A stretch of DNA of 64,000 nt from an uncultured Bacteroidales bacterium (GTDB lineage: Bacteria; Bacteroidota; Bacteroidia; Bacteroidales; F082): positions 1-64,000 of the forward strand of contig ONFF01000009.1 in NCBI GenBank assembly GCA_900317055.1, written 5' to 3'. The translations under genes were made by a program, and so were the position numbers. Shown here piece by piece: positions 11,721 to 46,215 of the stretch; position 1 is the first letter of the stretch, and every line of letters starts with the position of its first letter. Under the pieces are notes generated by a model. The model worked only from the letters and a program-made list of their open reading frames with translations. It was not told the origin of the DNA and searched no databases.

Positions 11721-12173
11721 CTAGTCATCTCGTAGGAAGTATCGCTCGTCGATACTGACCCCATTCTCTGTCAGGAAAGCTCGATGCTCCTCGGCAAAAG
11801 TCTTCCTACGATGATGCTCCTTCTGCTTCTTGATGTAGCCTACGATCATGTCCTTGTCGCGTAAGCTATAACTAAATCCGGCATACTCTCGTCCCCAGCC
11901 ACAAAAGCGTGGGAAGTGTGGATTTGCTTTCAGCCACTTGCTGCTGTCTGTCTTCACTCGTTGCACGAACGAGGCCAGTGATAAGTATGACGGCAATGAT
12001 ACGAACATGTGTATATGGTCGGCAATGCCGCCTATGCGGTAGGTTTGGCATTTCAGGTTCTTTGCTATGCCATAGATGTAGGCGTATAGTTCCCGCTCAT
12101 GTTCTTCGTTGATGGTTGGTTCGCTGCGGTAGGTGCGGATGACGATGTGGTAGTATGATGTTGTGTAGCTCAT
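11721..12173 (-). CDS. REP-associated tyrosine transposase (Y1/IS200-like, RAYT)
   Basis: 150-residue single-domain HUH transposase. The HUH motif is in GGIADHIHMFVSLP and the catalytic tyrosine is probably in DMIVGYIKKQKEHH. Such enzymes cut and join single-stranded DNA at hairpins. Start at MSYTTS (12173); the longer open frame upstream is translated repeat. The gene is flanked on both sides by GCGTGTC..GACACGC and CCCCACA..TGTGGGG palindromes, the layout of RAYT genes that mobilise or maintain REP sequences. Frame looks intact, so it may be active. Confidence 0.9.
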   Translation of the reverse strand: MSYTTSYYHIVIRTYRSEPTINEEHERELYAYIYGIAKNLKCQTYRIGGIADHIHMFVSLPSYLSLASFVQRVKTDSSKWLKANPHFPRFCGWGREYAGFSYSLRDKDMIVGYIKKQKEHHRRKTFAEEHRAFLTENGVSIDERYFLRDD

Positions 12174-12189
12174 GGTGATGTGTTTTGGG

Positions 12190-12349
12190 CCCCACTCTGC
12201 ATGTGGGGATGTGTGGTGTGTGTCGCCCCACACTGTATGTGGGGTAAATAGGATGGCGTGTCTTCGACACGCTGAGATTGTCTTGGGGAGGTGCTGTGAG
12301 CCCCCACACTGCATGTGGGGTAAATAGAATGGCGTGTCTTCGACACGCT
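12190..12349. repeat. REP-like palindrome array, transposase 5' side
   Basis: Three CCCCAC(A/T)CTG..ATGTGGGG hairpins (12190-12208, 12226-12244, 12302-12320). The last two are each followed by TAAATAG(A/G)ATG and GCGTGTC-TTC-GACACGC (12256-12272 and 12332-12348). This gives two direct copies of a unit of about 48 bp. The second reaches the end of the helicase gene at 12355. Confidence 0.8.
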
Positions 12350-12354
12350 TTGGA

Positions 12355-14895
12355 TTAGTCCTCTTCTTGTGGAGGGTTGTCAAAGAAGTGCTCTTGTTGT
12401 AGTTCTACCAGTACGGCCTTGATTTCACCGTATTGGTATTCTGGGCCAAGCACTTCTCGCGCAATGTTGATTTGAGGGTCAAAAGTGGACTCAAAGTACT
12501 CTAAAATCTCGTTGTATTTTTCTTTTTCAAGGATCTGTGAGGCTTTGAGAGTGCCTTCTTCCACATAATGGACCAAATGACCGAGAATCGTGCTGATGGC
12601 TAGACCTCTTTCCTTGGCGATGGCCTCGACCGACAATCCATTGTCAAACAATTCTTTGGTGATACGATAGGTGTCGCCTATTTGTCTCTTTTTGGTCACT
12701 TGAGAAAGATCTCCGATGTCGGTGGTTTGAGGGTCTTTGCCAATGAATCGTAGCACAATGTCCAATATTTCGGCTCCATAATTCCTGACGCGCTTGGTGC
12801 CCATGCCTTCTGTTGCCCTCAGTTCTGAAAGGGTGACGGGTTTATCGGTCGCAATGGTTTTGAGGGTTTTGATAGGTGCGATGTTGGAAGGGGGCACATC
12901 ATCGGCTTCGGCTCGTGCTGCACGCCAAGACAGCAAAATGGAATAAAGACTGCCATTCTTGCTCGGCTCAAATTTGATTTCCACCTTCTTCTTCCCGCTT
13001 TTCTCTGCCTCGATGGCTTTCACCGACTTGGTTTTTTGGTATTCCTTGACCGTGAAACCCTCTTTGCAAGCTTCCAAGCAGCATCCTTTCAGATAGATGT
13101 CTTCTTTGAGCAACTTCAAGGCTTCGGTGAGTTGCTCGTTGACGGCTTGGTTGTCGGTTTTGAAAGGCAAATCGAACAATCCGGCGGCGATGGATTTTAG
13201 ATGCTCGTCAAAGTAGGCAACACCTTTTATTAGACGCTCTTGCAAAACTGGGTTTTGCTCGCATGAAGGCGCTTGTTCATGCAGCTTCTGAATCTGGCCT
13301 TCGAATTTGATACCGACTGAACTTAGTTCCTCATGTATCTTGTTGCGTCGCTGCGAGAGGTCTTGGATCAACGAGTGCTCAAAGAGGGTGTCGTTGTCGT
13401 AAATCACCTTCATTAGTCGGCCAAAGTCCTTGTAGATGCTGTCGAAGTCAATGAGTTCGAGCATGGTCTCCAGCTCGTAGTCGTGGCGCAATTGGTCGAC
13501 TTTTTCTTGGGTAGGCTCTTTCTCGGGAAGTTGTTCCACAAATTGGTTGACGGAGAAATCGTTGACCAGGGCGTTGGAGCTGATGCGCGTCTTCAGCACG
13601 AGGCCTTCCAACGAGGTGCAACGGCTGAGGGCGACATAGACCTGTCCGTGGGCAAATGCTTGTCCCGCATCAACGATGACCTTGTCGAAGGTGAGGCCTT
13701 GGCTCTTGTGGATGGTGACCGCCCAAGCCAGACGCAAAGGGATTTGTGTGAAACTGCCAATCTCCTTTTCTTCAATATCCTGATTCTCAGCATTGATGGC
13801 ATACTCCATATTCTGCCACTTCAGCTTTGGAACGGTGATGCGTTCTCCGTCGCTTTCCACGGTGACAGTGCCTTCCTTTTCATCGTAGCCCACCAATCGG
13901 CCGATCTTGCCGTTAAAGAAAGCCTTCTCTGGGGTGGGGTCGTTTTTGACAAACATCACCTGAGCACCAACTTTTAACTCCAGCTCTTCCTTGGTGGGGT
14001 AGGTGTTCTCAGGGAAGGTGCCGTGGACTTCGGCCTTGAAAGTCAGCGTCTTTTCTTTGATGGCAGCCAGTTTCGAATCGTTGATTTGGTCGGCTTGGTA
14101 GTTGTGGGTGGTCAGGGTGATGTAGCCTTCCTCGTCTTTTGGCACGAAGCCTGGTTTGAAGCGGCTGTTGAGCACCCTTACGCAATCGGCATCCATTTGG
14201 TTGTTGCGCACCTTGTTCAACAATGAGATGAAGTCGTCATCGTGTTGGCGGTAGATGTGTTCCAGCTCCACGCAGACATAAGGTGCTTTTTTCAGCACTT
14301 GGCTACCGAAAAAATAGGGGGTGTCGTAATAGGGCGACAGCACTTCCCATTCCTCGGGTTTGGCCACAGGTGCCAGTTGGTGTACATCGCCAATCATCAG
14401 CAGTTGCAGACCGCCAAAAGGTTTCTGCGAACGGCGTACACGGCGCAACACCGCATCAATGGCATCCAAGACATCGGCGCGCACCATGCTGATCTCGTCG
14501 ATGATGAGCAGGTCGAGGCTGCGCATCAGGTTGATTTTCTTCTTGTTGAGTTTTTGGTATTGTGCGGCCAACGATTTTGCATTGTAGCCTTTGCCCAATG
14601 CGTTTTCAGGCAGTTGCGGTCCAAAAGGCAGCTGGAAGAACGAGTGAATGGTTTGTCCGCCCGCATTGATGGCAGCCACGCCCGTGGGTGCCACTACGAC
14701 CATGCGTTTGTAGGTCTTCAGTGGAAGGTTCTTCAAAAAAGTGGTCTTTCCCGTGCCCGCCTTTCCTGTGAGGAAGATGTGCGAGTCGGTGTAGAGCACC
14801 AGTTCTTCGACGAACTCAAGTTTCTGGTTAGTAAAGGTTTGCTGCGCCATGCTTTGGATTGCGTTCATTTGGCTAAAGTAGTGATTATTTTTCAT
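12355..14895 (-). CDS. Pif1-like helicase with HRDC and HTH-like C-terminus
   Basis: 846-residue superfamily 1B helicase. Walker A GKAGTGKTT and the GVAAINAGGQTIHSFF segment identify the Pif1/RecD-like core; Walker B is LLIIDEISMV; the C-terminal helicase half has TIHKSQGLTFDKVIVD and VYVALSRCTS. Beyond the core, SELRATEGMGTKRVRNYGAEIL resembles an HRDC domain and the last 130 residues (RITKELFDNGLSVEAIAKERGL) an HTH of the RQC or HTH_40 type. It probably unwinds DNA or DNA-RNA structures during replication and repair. ATG 14895 is used; internal ATGs at 14868 and 14850 also precede the core. Not obviously part of the transposon. Confidence 0.9.
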   Translation of the reverse strand: MKNNHYFSQMNAIQSMAQQTFTNQKLEFVEELVLYTDSHIFLTGKAGTGKTTFLKNLPLKTYKRMVVVAPTGVAAINAGGQTIHSFFQLPFGPQLPENALGKGYNAKSLAAQYQKLNKKKINLMRSLDLLIIDEISMVRADVLDAIDAVLRRVRRSQKPFGGLQLLMIGDVHQLAPVAKPEEWEVLSPYYDTPYFFGSQVLKKAPYVCVELEHIYRQHDDDFISLLNKVRNNQMDADCVRVLNSRFKPGFVPKDEEGYITLTTHNYQADQINDSKLAAIKEKTLTFKAEVHGTFPENTYPTKEELELKVGAQVMFVKNDPTPEKAFFNGKIGRLVGYDEKEGTVTVESDGERITVPKLKWQNMEYAINAENQDIEEKEIGSFTQIPLRLAWAVTIHKSQGLTFDKVIVDAGQAFAHGQVYVALSRCTSLEGLVLKTRISSNALVNDFSVNQFVEQLPEKEPTQEKVDQLRHDYELETMLELIDFDSIYKDFGRLMKVIYDNDTLFEHSLIQDLSQRRNKIHEELSSVGIKFEGQIQKLHEQAPSCEQNPVLQERLIKGVAYFDEHLKSIAAGLFDLPFKTDNQAVNEQLTEALKLLKEDIYLKGCCLEACKEGFTVKEYQKTKSVKAIEAEKSGKKKVEIKFEPSKNGSLYSILLSWRAARAEADDVPPSNIAPIKTLKTIATDKPVTLSELRATEGMGTKRVRNYGAEILDIVLRFIGKDPQTTDIGDLSQVTKKRQIGDTYRITKELFDNGLSVEAIAKERGLAISTILGHLVHYVEEGTLKASQILEKEKYNEILEYFESTFDPQINIAREVLGPEYQYGEIKAVLVELQQEHFFDNPPQEED

Positions 14896-24864: not shown

Positions 24865-26295
24865 TCAGAATCTAAAGTAAATGAAGGGGTTGAAATCGGA
24901 AACACACAACGAACCTGCTGAGAGGATGAACAAGACCAAGGTGATGGCGAACATGGTCCAGGAGAGTGGCTTGGAGTAGCTGTCGGCGAAGATAAGGTCT
25001 TGAAGCCTTTGCCCAAAGGGTAGCAATGTGAGGAAGGAGAACACGACGGCAAGGATGAAGACGCACCAGAATTGTGCGTCGCCAGCCACCGTCAAGCCGC
25101 CTTTGAAAGCGAACAAAGCTTGATAGAATGCGCCTGCATCGGCAGCCGTGTCGACACGGAAGAGCACCCAACCCATGGCCACCAGGAAGAAGGTGATGAC
25201 GACCGAGGGTAGCATGCCTATTTTCTTTAAGGCATTTTTGAGGAAGAGTTTGTCGGCGCAGATGAACAAGCCGTGGAAGGCGCCCCAAAGGACGAAGTTC
25301 CATGAGGCGCCATGCCACAATCCCGACAGAAGAAAACAGAGCCACAGGTTAAAATACATGCGTCCCTTGCCTTTGCGATTGCCGCCAAGCGGGATGTAGA
25401 GGTAGTTCATGATGAAGTTGCCCAAGGTCATGTGCCAGCGTTTCCAGAACTCGGTGACGCTGCGGCTGGTATAAGGGTCGTTGAAGTTCTCGGGGAAGCG
25501 GAAGCCCATCATCTTGCCCAAGCCGATGGCCATGTCGCTGTAGCCCGAGAAGTCGAAGTAGATCTGGAAGGTGTAGGCGAGGATGCCAATCCACGCCGTG
25601 CCTGTAGCCAAGTCGCCATATGCCATGCCAAACACTTGGTCGGCGTAGGCGGCCATGGTGTTGGCGATAAGCACTTTCTTTGCCAAACCGATGACGAAGC
25701 GGTAGAAACCCACCACGCGGTCTTCCATTGTGCTGGTGCGCGAGACCAGTTGAGCGGCCACGCTGTTGTAGTTGACGATGGGACCTGCGATGAGTTGCGG
25801 GAACATCATGATATACAGCACATAATCCGTCAGTTTTTGGCTGGGCGGTGTCGTTCCACGATACACATCGATGGTGTAGGTGATGGATTGGAAGGTGAAG
25901 AATGAGATGCCGATAGGCAAGGCCACCTTCATCCAACCGATAGGTTCATGGTGTGCCCAACCCAAGATGGTGTTGAGGTTCTCCATGAAGAAGTTGGCGT
26001 ATTTGAAATAGAGCAGCAGCCCCAAGGCCATAATCACAGAAATGGCACATAGGATTTTTTTCTTTGTTGTAGAGACGGTGTGTACACCGTCTGTACGCCC
26101 CATCGCCCTGACTATGAAATAGTTGATAACGCATTCGCCGACAAGCAGAAACACAAAGTCGGGGGCACCGTAGGCATAAAACACGATGGAGAAGAGCAGG
26201 AGCGTGTAGTTTCTGAATTTCTGCGGTGTGATGAAATAGGCTATCAAGAAGATAGGCAGAAAAAAGAAAAGGAAAATGTTGCTGCTGAATACCAT
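24865..26295 (-). CDS. MBOAT membrane O-acyltransferase (AlgI-like, I2)
   Basis: 476 residues with many membrane helices. Hallmarks: PQLIAGPIVNY, FTFQIYFDFSGYSDMAIGLG, the RWH histidine (His288) and the catalytic histidine in LSGLWHGA (His328). In alginate and similar systems AlgI moves acetyl groups across the membrane for a periplasmic transferase. A 28-nt palindrome (26069-26096) lies inside the gene and encodes GRTDGVHTVST in a loop at residues 66-76; the paralogue at 27664 has a shorter loop (NKTEKPGLKK). The frame stays open, so the insertion is tolerated. N-terminus MVFSSNIFL is family-typical. Confidence 0.93.
   Translation of the reverse strand: MVFSSNIFLFFFLPIFLIAYFITPQKFRNYTLLLFSIVFYAYGAPDFVFLLVGECVINYFIVRAMGRTDGVHTVSTTKKKILCAISVIMALGLLLYFKYANFFMENLNTILGWAHHEPIGWMKVALPIGISFFTFQSITYTIDVYRGTTPPSQKLTDYVLYIMMFPQLIAGPIVNYNSVAAQLVSRTSTMEDRVVGFYRFVIGLAKKVLIANTMAAYADQVFGMAYGDLATGTAWIGILAYTFQIYFDFSGYSDMAIGLGKMMGFRFPENFNDPYTSRSVTEFWKRWHMTLGNFIMNYLYIPLGGNRKGKGRMYFNLWLCFLLSGLWHGASWNFVLWGAFHGLFICADKLFLKNALKKIGMLPSVVITFFLVAMGWVLFRVDTAADAGAFYQALFAFKGGLTVAGDAQFWCVFILAVVFSFLTLLPFGQRLQDLIFADSYSKPLSWTMFAITLVLFILSAGSLCVSDFNPFIYFRF
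26069..26096. repeat. 28-nt palindrome inside the MBOAT gene
   Basis: GTAGAGACGGTGTG followed by the near-inverse TACACCGTCTGTAC. Same element as the copies at 32016, 32202, 32460 and 33530, all inside coding sequence. Confidence 0.85.
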
Positions 26296-30925: not shown

Positions 30926-32683
30926 ATGAAAACGAAGAAGATAGAACTGCTCTCGCCTGCCAAGGATGTCGAGGTGGGCATGGCTGCCATCAACCATGGT
31001 GCCGATGCCGTCTACATCGGTGGCCCCGACTTCGGTGCACGCGAAAAAGCCTCCAATAGCATTCAAGACATCGAACGCCTTTGCCGCCACGCGGCCTTGT
31101 ATGATGCCAAAGTGTATGTCACTTTGAACACTTTGCTCTACAACAACGAGTTGGAACGCGCCCGAAAGATTGCTTTTGATTGCTGGAACGCAGGCGTTGA
31201 TGCCCTCATTGTGCAGGATATGCAACTGCTCCAACTCGACCTGCCGCCCATTCCGCTTCATGCCAGCACGCAGTGCGATAACCTGACCGTGGAGAAAGTA
31301 CAACAGTTGGAGCAGTTAGGCTTCAGCCAAGTCGTTTTGGGTCGCGAATTGAGCCTGAAGCAGATTCGGGAGATTCGGGAGAAAACCACAGTGCCGTTGG
31401 AGTTTTTCGTGCATGGCGCACTCTGCGTCAGCCATAGCGGGCGGTGCTATCTCAGTCAGTATATTGGCAACCGCAGTGCTAATCGTGGTGCCTGCGCCCA
31501 GCCCTGCCGCTTGCCATGGGATTTGCTCGATGAGGATGGAAAGGTGCTGATCAAGAACCGGCATCTGCTTTGCTTGAAAGACCTCAACAACAGCGCCCAT
31601 TTGGAAGAACTCATCGATGCGGGCATCACGAGCTTCAAGATTGAAGGCCGACTGAAAGACGCTGACTATGTGAAGAATGTGACAGCTTATTATCGACAGA
31701 AACTGGATGAGATCATCAGCCGACGCAGTGATTTGGAACCGGCCTCATACGGGCGTTGCAACTATACATTTGATATCAATCCAGAGAAATCCTTCAACCG
31801 AGGTTTCACTGATTATTTCATCAATGGGCGACAAAAGGGCATAGGTTCGCCTTTCACCCCGAAATCGATGGGTGAATACATCGGTGAGGTCAGTTGGTGC
31901 AATCCCCTCCGAATGGAAATCGATACCGACAAGACCTTGCACAACGGTGACGGCCTGTGTTTTTTAAACCAGGATAACGAATTGGTGGGCTTGCGTGCCG
32001 ATGTGGTAAACATCGGTAGAGACGGTGTGCACACCGTCTCTACAAACCGCCCCCATGGTGCCTATCGTGGCGCAAAAATCTACCGTAACCTCGACCTCGA
32101 ATGGCAAAAACAGGTGGAGGCCTCCACGGGCAACCGCAAGATTGACATTGATTTGGTGTTGTCGGAAACGGAAACGGGGTATGAATTGTCCGCATTTATC
32201 CGTAGAGACGCACGGCCGTGCGTCTCTACAAACATACAATGCGACAAAATCCTCGCCAACAACCCCGAAAAGGCCACCGAAAACATCCAAAAAAAGGCCA
32301 TGCAATGGGGCGACACGGTGTTCAATCCCGTCAATTTGGAATTGAAATTCAACGAACCGCGTCTCATCCCTGCCTCGGTCATTGGCGAGATGAAACGGGA
32401 TTTGGTGACAAAATTGACGGATGAATTGGTTGAAAATCATAAGAATAACCGTGAATGCCGTAGAGAAGGTGCATGCACCGTCTCTAAAACGGTCACAAAT
32501 CCCGATGAAATTCCTGCCGCATTAATGACCTGCCACCATTGCATCCGTTACGCCAATGGTATGTGCAGCAAGGAAACGGGACAGAAGGCAACGCCGTTGT
32601 TCATCCGCAACGGCGCGAACACCTTCCGCCTCGATTTTGATTGTAGGAATTGTGTGATGACAGTCTCTGCGGTTACCGATTGA
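30926..32683 (+). CDS. U32 family peptidase-like protein
   Basis: 585 residues. The opening IELLSPAKDVEVGMAAINHGADAVYIGG is the TIM-barrel start of U32 proteins, and the signature EFFVHGALCVSHSGRCYLSQ with NRGACAQPCR is complete. A C-terminal cysteine cluster (TCHHCIRYANGMC, CRNC) follows. Relatives named as collagenase-like peptidases in fact include RNA hydroxylation enzymes (RlhA, TrhP), so an RNA-modifying role is more likely than proteolysis. Three 28-nt palindromes sit inside the C-terminal third and encode GRDGVHTVST, RRDARPCVST and RREGACTVSK without breaking the frame. Start fixed by the -7 box at 30914. The 3' end overlaps the convergent GHMP kinase gene by 11 bp. Confidence 0.9.
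   Translation: MKTKKIELLSPAKDVEVGMAAINHGADAVYIGGPDFGAREKASNSIQDIERLCRHAALYDAKVYVTLNTLLYNNELERARKIAFDCWNAGVDALIVQDMQLLQLDLPPIPLHASTQCDNLTVEKVQQLEQLGFSQVVLGRELSLKQIREIREKTTVPLEFFVHGALCVSHSGRCYLSQYIGNRSANRGACAQPCRLPWDLLDEDGKVLIKNRHLLCLKDLNNSAHLEELIDAGITSFKIEGRLKDADYVKNVTAYYRQKLDEIISRRSDLEPASYGRCNYTFDINPEKSFNRGFTDYFINGRQKGIGSPFTPKSMGEYIGEVSWCNPLRMEIDTDKTLHNGDGLCFLNQDNELVGLRADVVNIGRDGVHTVSTNRPHGAYRGAKIYRNLDLEWQKQVEASTGNRKIDIDLVLSETETGYELSAFIRRDARPCVSTNIQCDKILANNPEKATENIQKKAMQWGDTVFNPVNLELKFNEPRLIPASVIGEMKRDLVTKLTDELVENHKNNRECRREGACTVSKTVTNPDEIPAALMTCHHCIRYANGMCSKETGQKATPLFIRNGANTFRLDFDCRNCVMTVSAVTD
32016..32043. repeat. 28-nt palindrome inside the U32 gene, copy 1
   Basis: Perfect palindrome with arm GTAGAGACGGTGTG. 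It encodes part of GRDGVHTVST on the plus strand. Confidence 0.9.
32202..32229. repeat. 28-nt palindrome inside the U32 gene, copy 2
   Basis: Perfect palindrome with arm GTAGAGACGCACGG: same outer eight bases and length as copy 1 but a different core. Encodes RRDARPCVST. Confidence 0.9.
32460..32487. repeat. 28-nt palindrome inside the U32 gene, copy 3
   Basis: GTAGAGAAGGTGCA followed by the near-inverse TGCACCGTCTCTAA, with two mismatched pairs. Encodes RREGACTVSK; it appears older than copies 1 and 2. Confidence 0.85.
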
Positions 32684-33668
32684 GTACCAGCTCCTTGTAA
32701 CCGAAAACCACTTCCAAGCCTTTTCCCTTGAAATAGGCTTTCACTTGGCTTTCGTCCCAATTGGTTGAGGCCAAGATGAAATCGCCACCCCAAGCGCCCA
32801 ACGATTTCAAGACACCTTCAAAGTCGGGGAAACGCTTTTGAACGGGTTCCTGCCCGATGCAGCGGGCGATGATGCGCTCGTGGCATTGCATAAGCATAGC
32901 GAATTCATCCAAACTTTCACATTTCGGCACGGCACAGCTGATTTCCGAAACGGCCTCAATATCTTTTTGTAAATCAACAGGATTTGCTTTGGCTAAAAAC
33001 GCCTTGATTTCCTTTGAGGAACTTTGCTTTTGGCCTTGGTAGATGAAAAACAGATGCTCGGCAAAGTGTGGGTTGAAATCTATAGGTTCAACCATGGGAG
33101 TCGGCCCTTCGACAGGCTCAGGGACCTTAGCTGGTAAATCAAGCGTAGGCCGTTGAGCTTGTCGAAACGCCGATTTAGACATGGACAGTTGATAATAAAT
33201 TGGCCCTTCAGCCGTGGCGCAAGCGATGTCATAACCCGAGCCACCAAAGGTCAACTTCAGTAATTCGTATGGATTGACATCAGCCCATCTTGCTAGGTTG
33301 GCAATCAAGGTGGAGCTGCTGCCGAGGCCCCAATTCGGGTCGAAGTCGAGACGGGTGGTGAATTTTAAATTGTTGCTTTCAAAAGCCTTGGGATTCAATT
33401 GCTTGACGGCTTGCAGGATTTGTCTAAGTTTTTCGGCTTTAGGTTGGTCATCGCTGTCGATAATATCAAGGTTTTCTGGGTTCAAGGTTGCCGAAAACCA
33501 AGGGCCATCGGGTTTGTAGGCATCCCAATGTAGAGATGGTGTGCAAACCGTCTCTACCGTTAATGATTGACCCAATTTCAGCGGTGTTGCCAACGCTAGG
33601 GCACCTTTTAATACTAGGTACTCACCTGTCAGAAGGAATTTTCCATGAGAATAGTATTTTTGAACCAT
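32673..33668 (-). CDS. GYDIA-type GHMP kinase
   Basis: 331-residue small-molecule kinase. SHGKFLLTGEYLVLKGALALATP is the N-terminal GHMP strand, NWGLGSSSTLIANLA the ATP-binding loop, GGSGYDIACA the name-giving motif, and GAWGGDFILAS the C-terminal motif. GHMP kinases of this subgroup lie next to HMG-CoA reductase in Bacteroidetes, as here, so a mevalonate-pathway kinase role is inferred. Two repeat-derived inserts are visible: VETVCTPSLHW from a 28-nt palindrome (33530-33557) and AFRQAQRPTLDLPAKVPEPVEGPTPM from a second family (33102-33170). Without them the length would be near 300. Confidence 0.85.
   Translation of the reverse strand: MVQKYYSHGKFLLTGEYLVLKGALALATPLKLGQSLTVETVCTPSLHWDAYKPDGPWFSATLNPENLDIIDSDDQPKAEKLRQILQAVKQLNPKAFESNNLKFTTRLDFDPNWGLGSSSTLIANLARWADVNPYELLKLTFGGSGYDIACATAEGPIYYQLSMSKSAFRQAQRPTLDLPAKVPEPVEGPTPMVEPIDFNPHFAEHLFFIYQGQKQSSSKEIKAFLAKANPVDLQKDIEAVSEISCAVPKCESLDEFAMLMQCHERIIARCIGQEPVQKRFPDFEGVLKSLGAWGGDFILASTNWDESQVKAYFKGKGLEVVFGYKELVLNR
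33102..33170. repeat. CTTCGACAGGCTCAGGG inverted-repeat element inside the GHMP kinase
   Basis: CGGCCCTTCGACAGGCTCAG at 33102 onward and an inverted relative GGCCGTTGAGCTTGTCG at 33149 onward flank about 23 bp. Read on the minus strand the first arm gives PEPVEGP. Related copies are at 50891 (in a gene) and 54728 (intergenic). Confidence 0.8.
33530..33557. repeat. 28-nt palindrome inside the GHMP kinase gene
   Basis: GTAGAGATGGTGTG followed by the near-inverse CAAACCGTCTCTAC. Same family as the copies in the U32 and MBOAT genes. Confidence 0.85.
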
Positions 33669-38745: not shown

Positions 38746-38823
38746 TGAATGATGAATGCTGAATGAAGAATGCTGAATGATGGGTCCGGTAGGCCATTCA
38801 GCATTCAGCATTCCGAATTCCTA
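38746..38823. repeat. GAATGCTGAATGA repeat between ribF and asd
   Basis: ATGAATGCTGAATGAAGAAT repeats face the inverse CATTCAGCATTCAGCATTCC. It gives a false N-terminal extension to ribF. Confidence 0.7.
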
Positions 38824-38824
38824 A

Positions 38825-39814
38825 TTATACAAGTTTTGTTTCTATTAAATATTTAGCTATTTGCACGGCATTCGTGGCAGCGCCTTTACGGAGATTGTCG
38901 GCCACGCACCAAAAATTGAGGCCGTTCTCCACCGAGAAGTCACGGCGGATGCGACCCACGAAGACCTCATCCTTGCCTTCGGCATAGAGAGGCATCGGAT
39001 AAATGTTGTTGGCCGAGTCGTCTTGCACCACCACGCCAGGCATGGCAGCCATCAATCTTCGGACATCGTCGATTTCAAATGGCTTTTCTGTCTCCACATT
39101 GACGGCTTCACTATGGCCGCCCCACACGGGCACACGCACCGTGGTGGATGAGACGGCGATGTGCTCGTCGCGGAGAATCTTACGCGTTTCATTGACCATC
39201 TTCATCTCCTCTTTGGTATAGCCGTTGTCGAGGAAGGTATCGATGTGGGGCAGGATGTTGAGGTCAATCGGATGGGGATAGCAAGTCGTGCCGCTCGCGC
39301 CAGCGCGCTCGGCCTTCAGCTGGTTGACACCTTTTTGGCCGCTGCCTGAGACGCTTTGGTAGGTGCTGACGACAATGCGTTTGATGCCGTAGGCTTTGTG
39401 GATGGGGGCCAAGGCCATCACCATCTGTATGGTGGAGCAGTTGGGGTTGGCGATGATGTGCGTGTCCTTGCTGATAGTGTCGGCATTGATTTCGGGAACG
39501 ACCAAAGGAACATCTTTTTCCATGCGCCAGGCAGAGCTGTTGTCGACGACGAAGGTGCCCTGAGCAGCAAAACGCGGCGCATACTGTTTCGATGCCGATG
39601 CTCCTGCCGAGAAGATGGCGATGTCGGGGCGGGCAGCGATGGCCTCGTCCACGCTGACCACTTTGTAGGTTTTGCCCTGGAAAACGATTTCCTTGCCCAC
39701 GGAGCGTTCCGAGGCTGCCACAATCAATTCATCTATGCGAACCTTCTGTTCGTCAAGCACTTGAAGCATCTTCGAGCCGACCAATCCGGTGGCTCCCACC
39801 ACTGCGATTTTCAT
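38825..39814 (-). CDS. asd: aspartate-semialdehyde dehydrogenase
   Basis: 329 residues. NADP-binding GATGLVG (7-13), catalytic Cys126 in ANPNCSTIQ, and the YQSVSGSGQKGVNQL region. Converts aspartyl phosphate to the semialdehyde for lysine, diaminopimelate, threonine and methionine synthesis. Single gene with a -7 box at 39840. Confidence 0.97.
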   Translation of the reverse strand: MKIAVVGATGLVGSKMLQVLDEQKVRIDELIVAASERSVGKEIVFQGKTYKVVSVDEAIAARPDIAIFSAGASASKQYAPRFAAQGTFVVDNSSAWRMEKDVPLVVPEINADTISKDTHIIANPNCSTIQMVMALAPIHKAYGIKRIVVSTYQSVSGSGQKGVNQLKAERAGASGTTCYPHPIDLNILPHIDTFLDNGYTKEEMKMVNETRKILRDEHIAVSSTTVRVPVWGGHSEAVNVETEKPFEIDDVRRLMAAMPGVVVQDDSANNIYPMPLYAEGKDEVFVGRIRRDFSVENGLNFWCVADNLRKGAATNAVQIAKYLIETKLV

Positions 39815-46117: not shown

Positions 46118-46215
46118 TTGTAGGGCTGCCGTACCACGGTTGTAGGGCTGTCGTACCACGGCAGCCGCGGGAAAAACAATTTCAAGCGGCTGCCACGATG
46201 TGACAGCCCTACAAA
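46118..46215. repeat. long imperfect palindrome GTAGGGCTG...CAGCCCTAC
   Basis: TTGTAGGGCTGCCGTACCAC, a second GTAGGGCTGTCGTACCACGG, and the inverse GCGGCTGCCACGATGTGACAG with CCCTACAA. It lies just after the stop of the barrel gene at 46219 and could also end transcription. Confidence 0.7.

Follow-up and report, generated by a model that had tools for sequence, protein, structure and literature searches.

Palindromes resembling double-foot REPs lie in frame in a U32-family gene of an uncultured Bacteroidales bacterium and its relatives

Known palindromic repeats and the elements of the window

RAYTs, also called TnpA-REP, are HUH Y1 transposases. The small dispersed repeats of cyanobacteria, which Elhai is said to have described in 2008, are reportedly very small dispersed sequences with GTAGAGACG arms similar to those reported here. 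Small dispersed repeats are also mentioned in an excerpted source (PMC3116915). The double-foot REPs that Quentin et al. (2018; PMC6006769, in excerpt) assign to TnpA-REP subclass 2.4, equivalent to RAYT group 4, come from Cyanobacteria and Bacteroidetes; they flank tnpA-REP genes and also occur within these genes, in frame, between the HUH and Y motifs. An initial annotation of the DNA studied here, which knew of no description for this lineage, was too strong at the phylum level, since double-foot REPs and in-frame REPs of tnpA-REP appear in that excerpt for Bacteroidetes. The palindromes that we report share with the subclass 2.4 REPs, as excerpted, a GT[AG]G foot with its reverse complement at the other end; they also share many copies per genome and the flanking of tnpA-REP in relatives, though not at the two RAYT-like genes of the genome studied here. 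We read them as elements of an already known kind, whose capture in frame by a single gene is recorded here in unusual richness. What differs from the excerpted account, and is new, is the host gene: in a conserved gene that is unrelated, as many as five turns hold REPs, and these turns also take other hairpin repeats. Core-to-RAYT matching counted within one genus is a further addition to that account.

Intragenic REPs of the GTAG and CGTC types have been reported within ORFs, some genes having two, and two Xanthomonas species carry different REPs at about the same recB site (Di Nocera et al., 2013; PMC3733652, in excerpt). Those REPs resemble ours in lying inside ORFs and differ in their unpaired tag motif, and the excerpt describes no genus-wide, multi-family turnover at fixed turns. 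The palindromic coding repeats termed PARCEL are likewise translated DNA with dyad symmetry, but in the part of the source seen (PMC2996958) they are 25-residue domains arranged in tandem, unlike the single dispersed turns here.

The window, that is, the whole 64-kb stretch of DNA analysed, contains the features listed in Table 1. We consider it likely that the three palindromes of the U32-family gene are double-foot REPs with GTAG at both feet, that they represent several REP families core-matched to particular RAYTs, and that they were dispersed by RAYT activity and survive in frame in tolerant turns.

Table 1. Coordinates of the palindromes and their host genes in the window
Feature	Position	Strand	Remarks
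Host gene, U32-family protein with C-terminal DUF3656	30926..32683	+	585 aa from ATG; ORF open from 30683
Palindrome 1, GTAGAGACGGTGTGCACACCGTCTCTAC, core GTGTGCACAC	32016..32043	.	Read as GRDGVHTVST; turn 1
Palindrome 2, GTAGAGACGCACGGCCGTGCGTCTCTAC, core CACGGCCGTG	32202..32229	.	Read as RRDARPCVST; turn 2
Palindrome 3, GTAGAGAAGGTGCATGCACCGTCTCTAA, core GTGCATGCAC	32460..32487	.	Read as RREGACTVSK; turn 3
In-frame palindrome in GYDIA-family GHMP kinase gene (32673-33668, -)	33530..33557	.	Pattern match
In-frame palindrome, one arm base changed, in MBOAT-family gene (24865-26295, -)	26069..26096	.	Pattern match

All three palindromes of the U32 gene are 28 nt long; the first two are perfect, with 14-bp arms, and the third has two mismatched pairs. 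Their positions, their peptides and the open frame were as the initial annotation had given them. The pattern TAGAGA-N14-TCTCTA, with up to two mismatches, matches six times in the window versus 1.25 expected, and none of 100 shuffles reached six (maximum 5). Two of the matches, in the GHMP kinase and MBOAT-family genes, are in-frame palindromes beyond the three already noted. At the GHMP kinase site, different cores occupy the same place in several relatives and none is present in L019, while the MBOAT-family gene of relative L058 lacks ten residues at the palindrome site. The minus strand at 11724-12383 encodes an IS200-like Y1 transposase of another type, with none of these palindromes nearby. 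The two inverted CGTCTC hexamers in the element arms equal the BsmBI/Esp3I recognition sequence, which we take to be probably coincidental.

The product of 30926-32683 contains the domains Peptidase_U32 and DUF3656. Its best NCBIfam model is TrhP, far below cut-off, and the top models are of RNA-hydroxylase and ubiquinone-biosynthesis types, all far below cut-off; the name "peptidase" may be a misnomer for this U32-DUF3656 product. A search for a solved homologue on which the loops could be mapped returned none at E ≤ 0.001, and the turns named here are those predicted from alignment. Between 24800 and 34400, Rfam at E ≤ 1 gave no match at any palindrome, the sole match being a weak DUF805b below its gathering score, and a known RNA family was rejected as the identity of the palindromes.

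Dispersed copies and core-matched RAYT genes

The palindromes are dispersed across the genome, the genus and part of the phylum. In the genome of the window (G000; 3.53 Mb, 32 contigs), TAGAGA-N14-TCTCTA with at most one mismatch occurs at 64 places versus 8 for the reversed control pattern. Copies with exact arms number 48, with 22 inside codon-scored ORFs and 26 outside; this census covers the exact-arm sites, and among the 16 one-mismatch places the one at 26070 was classified. Assignment to an ORF means passing a codon-score threshold, and the copy in a NUDIX gene lies near the N-terminus and may precede the true start. According to Pfam and NCBIfam models, the hosts include a GH77 enzyme (within its CBM20 domain), a Macro domain protein, GH106, AlkZ-like, NUDIX and BadF-type proteins, and two Y1 transposases. 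The 22 intragenic copies are read in phases 1 and 2 alone (17 and 5, respectively); the third frame reads TAG, a stop. Since the search pattern required TAGAGA/TCTCTA, the constancy of these bases is uninformative. The base just beyond the searched 26-mer is G/C in 93 of the 96 ends of the exact-arm sites, and the hairpin has GT[AG]G as its 5' foot and, at its 3' end, the reverse complement of that foot; the TAGAGA/TCTCTA part was preset by the pattern.

The hosts of the 22 intragenic copies further include seven T9SS type A sorting domains, all among 150 TIGR04183 matches (150 of 196 candidates were scored). In these seven domains (L005, L008 (two), L010, L011, L114 and L116) the palindrome lies at the same turn and each core is different, two of them by one base; the domains are about five residues longer than the others listed.

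We found the pattern TAGAGACG-N10-CGTCTCTA in 59 of the 60 genus genomes sampled (0 to 68 copies each), with no match to the reversed control in any of the 60. Of the 395 genomes sampled from the phylum, 56 have the pattern, the control matching in one. The named relatives with these sequences are "bacterium F082" and uncultured Bacteroidales/Bacteroidia MAGs, some of which have yak or buffalo abomasum or red deer in their titles. An array of eight palindromes, mostly at 68-bp spacing, is present in a genome from a different order (G422:C22:35020-35568).

RAYT genes of the genus are flanked by, and contain, palindromes with the same cores. RAYT-like relatives were found with one of the two palindrome-containing transposase genes of G000 as query, and palindromes at their loci were accepted with at most three arm mismatches and at least 10 of 13 pairs. 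Thirty such loci (95 kb) contained 53 palindromes, which were present in 20 loci and absent from 10, whereas 2 were counted in 192 kb around other Y1_Tnp genes (30 control loci) and sorting domains (another 30). For a further 30 loci, some of them shared with the first set, the count was 58 palindromes in 104 kb, again in 20 of the 30. A general association with Y1_Tnp genes was rejected: palindromes occurred at 1 of 30 PF01797 loci fetched from the genus, and genome size confounds the correlation in copy number (rho 0.39). The association is confined to the L105-related RAYT type.

Of the 28 loci in which a HUH ORF was recognised, 16 have, by reading, an in-frame palindrome downstream of its motif. 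In L190, L191, L193 and L194 it lies between the HUH and Y motifs; for the other 12 the placement is only after HUH, the Y motif being improperly matched by the pattern. RAYT genes with palindromes on both sides occur, for example, in the relatives L194, L195, L200, L202 and L203. Many of the relatives have the motif MPNH[ILVF]H; the two G000 genes, with DHLH and YIVRNP, fit the NH[IFV]H, WQ and YIxNNP motifs of subclass 2.4 transposases only in part, and score 69 and 64 bits against NF047646 REP_Tyr_transpos, under its 80-bit cut-off. The proteins are thus candidate members of that subclass.

In the first set, 15 loci have at least two palindromes, and their cores agree at 8.8 of 10 positions when compared within a locus and at 3.3 of 10 across loci, a result reached by 0 of 5000 permutations. 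This permutation value is generous because related loci are not independent; L200, L202 and L205 hold other cores as well. The core GTGTGCACAC of palindrome 1 flanks and sits inside the RAYT genes of L200 and L202. The RAYTs of G041 and G002 contain it, and these two genomes have the most copies of it among the 60, with 27 and 21, respectively. A close relative of this RAYT (96-100%) is present in 2 of 60 genomes, the same two that are richest in the core. Orphan REP families exist, with copies but no close RAYT: G049, G043 and G021 have 18, 13 and 10 copies of GTGTGCACAC without one, and G000 has 8 copies and no relative of the RAYT at E ≤ 1e-20. The core CACGGCCGTG of palindrome 2 lies inside the two RAYT-like genes of G000, in whose fetched flanks no palindrome was found. 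It is most abundant in G011 (33 copies), whose RAYT (L194) is flanked by and contains it. Among the loci examined, no RAYT with the core GTGCATGCAC of palindrome 3 was found. Since distinct RAYT loci are matched by different cores, we attribute the core differences within the U32 gene mostly to different REP families.

The same evidence bears on a likeness to the palindromic elements of Rickettsia (RPE) that the initial annotation had proposed. As an analogy of how the elements work, the likeness holds: short palindromes inside many genes behave similarly (PMC3733652, in excerpt), both kinds are translated palindromic inserts in unrelated genes (here 22 of 48 copies lie in codon-scored ORFs), and the GCGTCATTGCGAGG-type inserts at turn 2 of the U32 gene in some relatives, by reading, resemble CGTC repeats. 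It fails as membership. In the excerpt, RPE-4 and RPE-6 are CGTC repeats, which have an unpaired tag and no transposase (PMC3733652), whereas the elements of the window have a paired GTAG/CTAC foot, carry CGTC inside the paired arm and are associated with core-matched RAYT loci. That they belong to the Rickettsia elements or CGTC REPs is extremely improbable.

Turns of the U32-family gene across the genus

A U32 match is present in 59 of the 60 genus genomes, in some just as a paralogue. We compared 42 distinct genes, from the best 30 of these 59 genomes and from 18 named relatives, with six duplicates removed. The same predicted turns are occupied recurrently, in frame and by changing repeats in part of the genus. 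At least one palindrome is present in 28 of the 42 genes, with five in L031, and two further palindrome sites beyond the three turns are used in 6 and 2 of the 42, respectively. Turn 1 is empty in 16 genes and filled in 26, by several double-foot cores, by a GTCGCCGACTGCGTCC hairpin family or by TGTAGGGCTGTCA repeats; turn 2 also holds GCGTCATTGCGAGG-type repeats, GTAGGGACGCA hairpins and inverted 7-nt repeats. Hairpin z-scores below -3 were obtained at the three turns in 20, 23 and 16 of the 42 genes, versus 2 of 252 segments taken from these genes as controls. A tree of 41 genes was built with the loops excluded (L045, an incomplete gene, was omitted); on it, five states of turn 1 require at least 15 changes, and the palindrome label 12 changes, of which at least seven are forced by supported branches. 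Recombination between species could spread patchy loops, which would lower the true number of insertions.

The U32 gene also stands out within G000. Three of the 22 intragenic copies fall in this single gene (post hoc binomial probability of about 3e-7, assuming 88% coding), and about 2e-4 genes would be expected to have three or more (post hoc, assuming 2900 equal genes and 88% coding).

Of the other 29 matching genomes, 20 supplied further orthologues and one more is that of L161; the others had just partial genes or a paralogue with identity of about 34%. The 20 added, more diverged members of the genus carry a palindrome in 4 of 19 genes (20 fetched; L252, the gene of L063, omitted), mostly at turn 3, and heavy occupation is therefore a feature of part of the genus. 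By reading, repeat-like inserts of other kinds are present in several, and turn 2 is short in many. Turn 3 of L254, L258-L260 and L265 holds another repeat-like insert, with peptides such as EVKRNGEIL...TTLEMTR.

The initial annotation had pictured dispersed, mobile-type palindromes entering the gene in frame, and the comparison with other genera agrees. Of 28 orthologues of other genera, taken from the best 30 loci, 24 were parsed (L164, L165, L175 and L187 were not); L161 is of the same genus, with other inserts. No insert is present at turn 1 in any of the 24, or at turn 2 in any of the 23 that could be parsed there (L183 ends before turn 2). At turn 3 these orthologues have a native segment that is lacking in most of the 42 genus genes.

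A different view is that selection maintains the hairpins because they serve a function, such as an mRNA hairpin, a translation pause or a useful peptide, and that the cores covary for this reason; the initial annotation had taken covarying cores to show either selection for the hairpin or frequent copying between sites. The core pairs do covary (77 double-change cells versus 25.9 in shuffles; 0 of 500), and at turn 3, where L016, L046 and L059 have a mismatched arm, L062 closes the mismatch by a compensating, amino-acid-changing base on the other arm. However, covariation is strong on three of five measures and not above shuffles on the other two (207 of 500 and 86 of 500), and it is explained by the pooling of separate families, several with their own RAYT, so we rejected it as proof of hairpin selection. 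Turn 1 is, moreover, empty in 16 of 42 genes and filled by unrelated repeats in others, and the peptides vary in sequence and length. Selection for function is very unlikely to account for the three palindromes; the single arm change in L062 could be templated correction or chance.

Insertion anatomy and a probable course of events

Loop lengths in the U32 genes are all multiples of three, as a comparison of intact ORFs demands. The number 28 is not a multiple of three, and a clean insertion of the element would therefore break the frame. Among the pairs compared, net size changes were +9, +12, +15, +30 and others and never a clean +28; the commonest net gain at turn 1 is 15, and in the MBOAT gene it is 30, or ten residues. 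At two sites, among the pairs listed, the 28 nt replace 16 or 19 nt of target. Surviving insertions thus show target loss or extra bases, whether as part of the mechanism or through later trimming.

Such a swap of 16 or 19 nt for 28 nt would also fit template switching, and the palindromes might then arise or persist locally, by templated (quasi-palindrome) correction or template switching and with no transposase. Consistent with this are the turn 3 correction in L062, a palindrome at turn 2 of L017 that reaches into its flanks, and a long inverted repeat at turn 2 of L034 in which native coding sequence from downstream forms the right arm. Against it, the same 28-mers at unrelated loci and in different species need dispersal, and RAYT loci are strongly enriched in palindromes and core-matched to them. 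Purely local origin is, in our judgement, unlikely.

Under dispersal by RAYTs, the reading that we prefer, the RAYT would cut at the feet and copy or move the hairpin as single-stranded DNA, inserting it widely. We infer such movement from the association of RAYT genes and cores. Nearly all insertions in genes would be lost, and the survivors would be those in tolerant turns with the frame kept. The U32-family gene, with at least five tolerant turns, would act as a collector of REPs and other hairpin repeats, and these seem to displace one another in its turns. A GTCGCC-type insert is found in seven genes, and in three (L020, L029 and L049) the palindrome's right half, CACCGTCTC[T/A]AC, is retained at the end, in what looks like the scar of a replaced element. 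A bolder extension, in which turns of a conserved enzyme are standing landing pads where RAYT-driven REP turnover rewrites loops in frame within a genus and the resulting variation is useful to the cell and not merely tolerated, strikes us as very improbable.

The U32 turns, which relatives have empty, filled or with contents apparently replaced, offer a natural experiment on repeat DNA becoming protein, and the pairs of RAYT and core form a set for testing whether RAYTs move REPs. Such peptides should not be read as conserved protein features.

Repeats akin to those at the U32 turns also occur elsewhere in the window. An inverted repeat between ORFs at 46140-46214 (TTGTAGGGCTGTC...GACAGCCCTACAA) includes the TGTAGGGCTGTCA motif, which is also present in frame at turn 1 of the U32 genes of L025 and L035. 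An inverted array of a 7-nt-like repeat (GAATGCT) lies at 38748-38826, and turn 2 in several relatives is filled by similar inverted 7-nt repeats.
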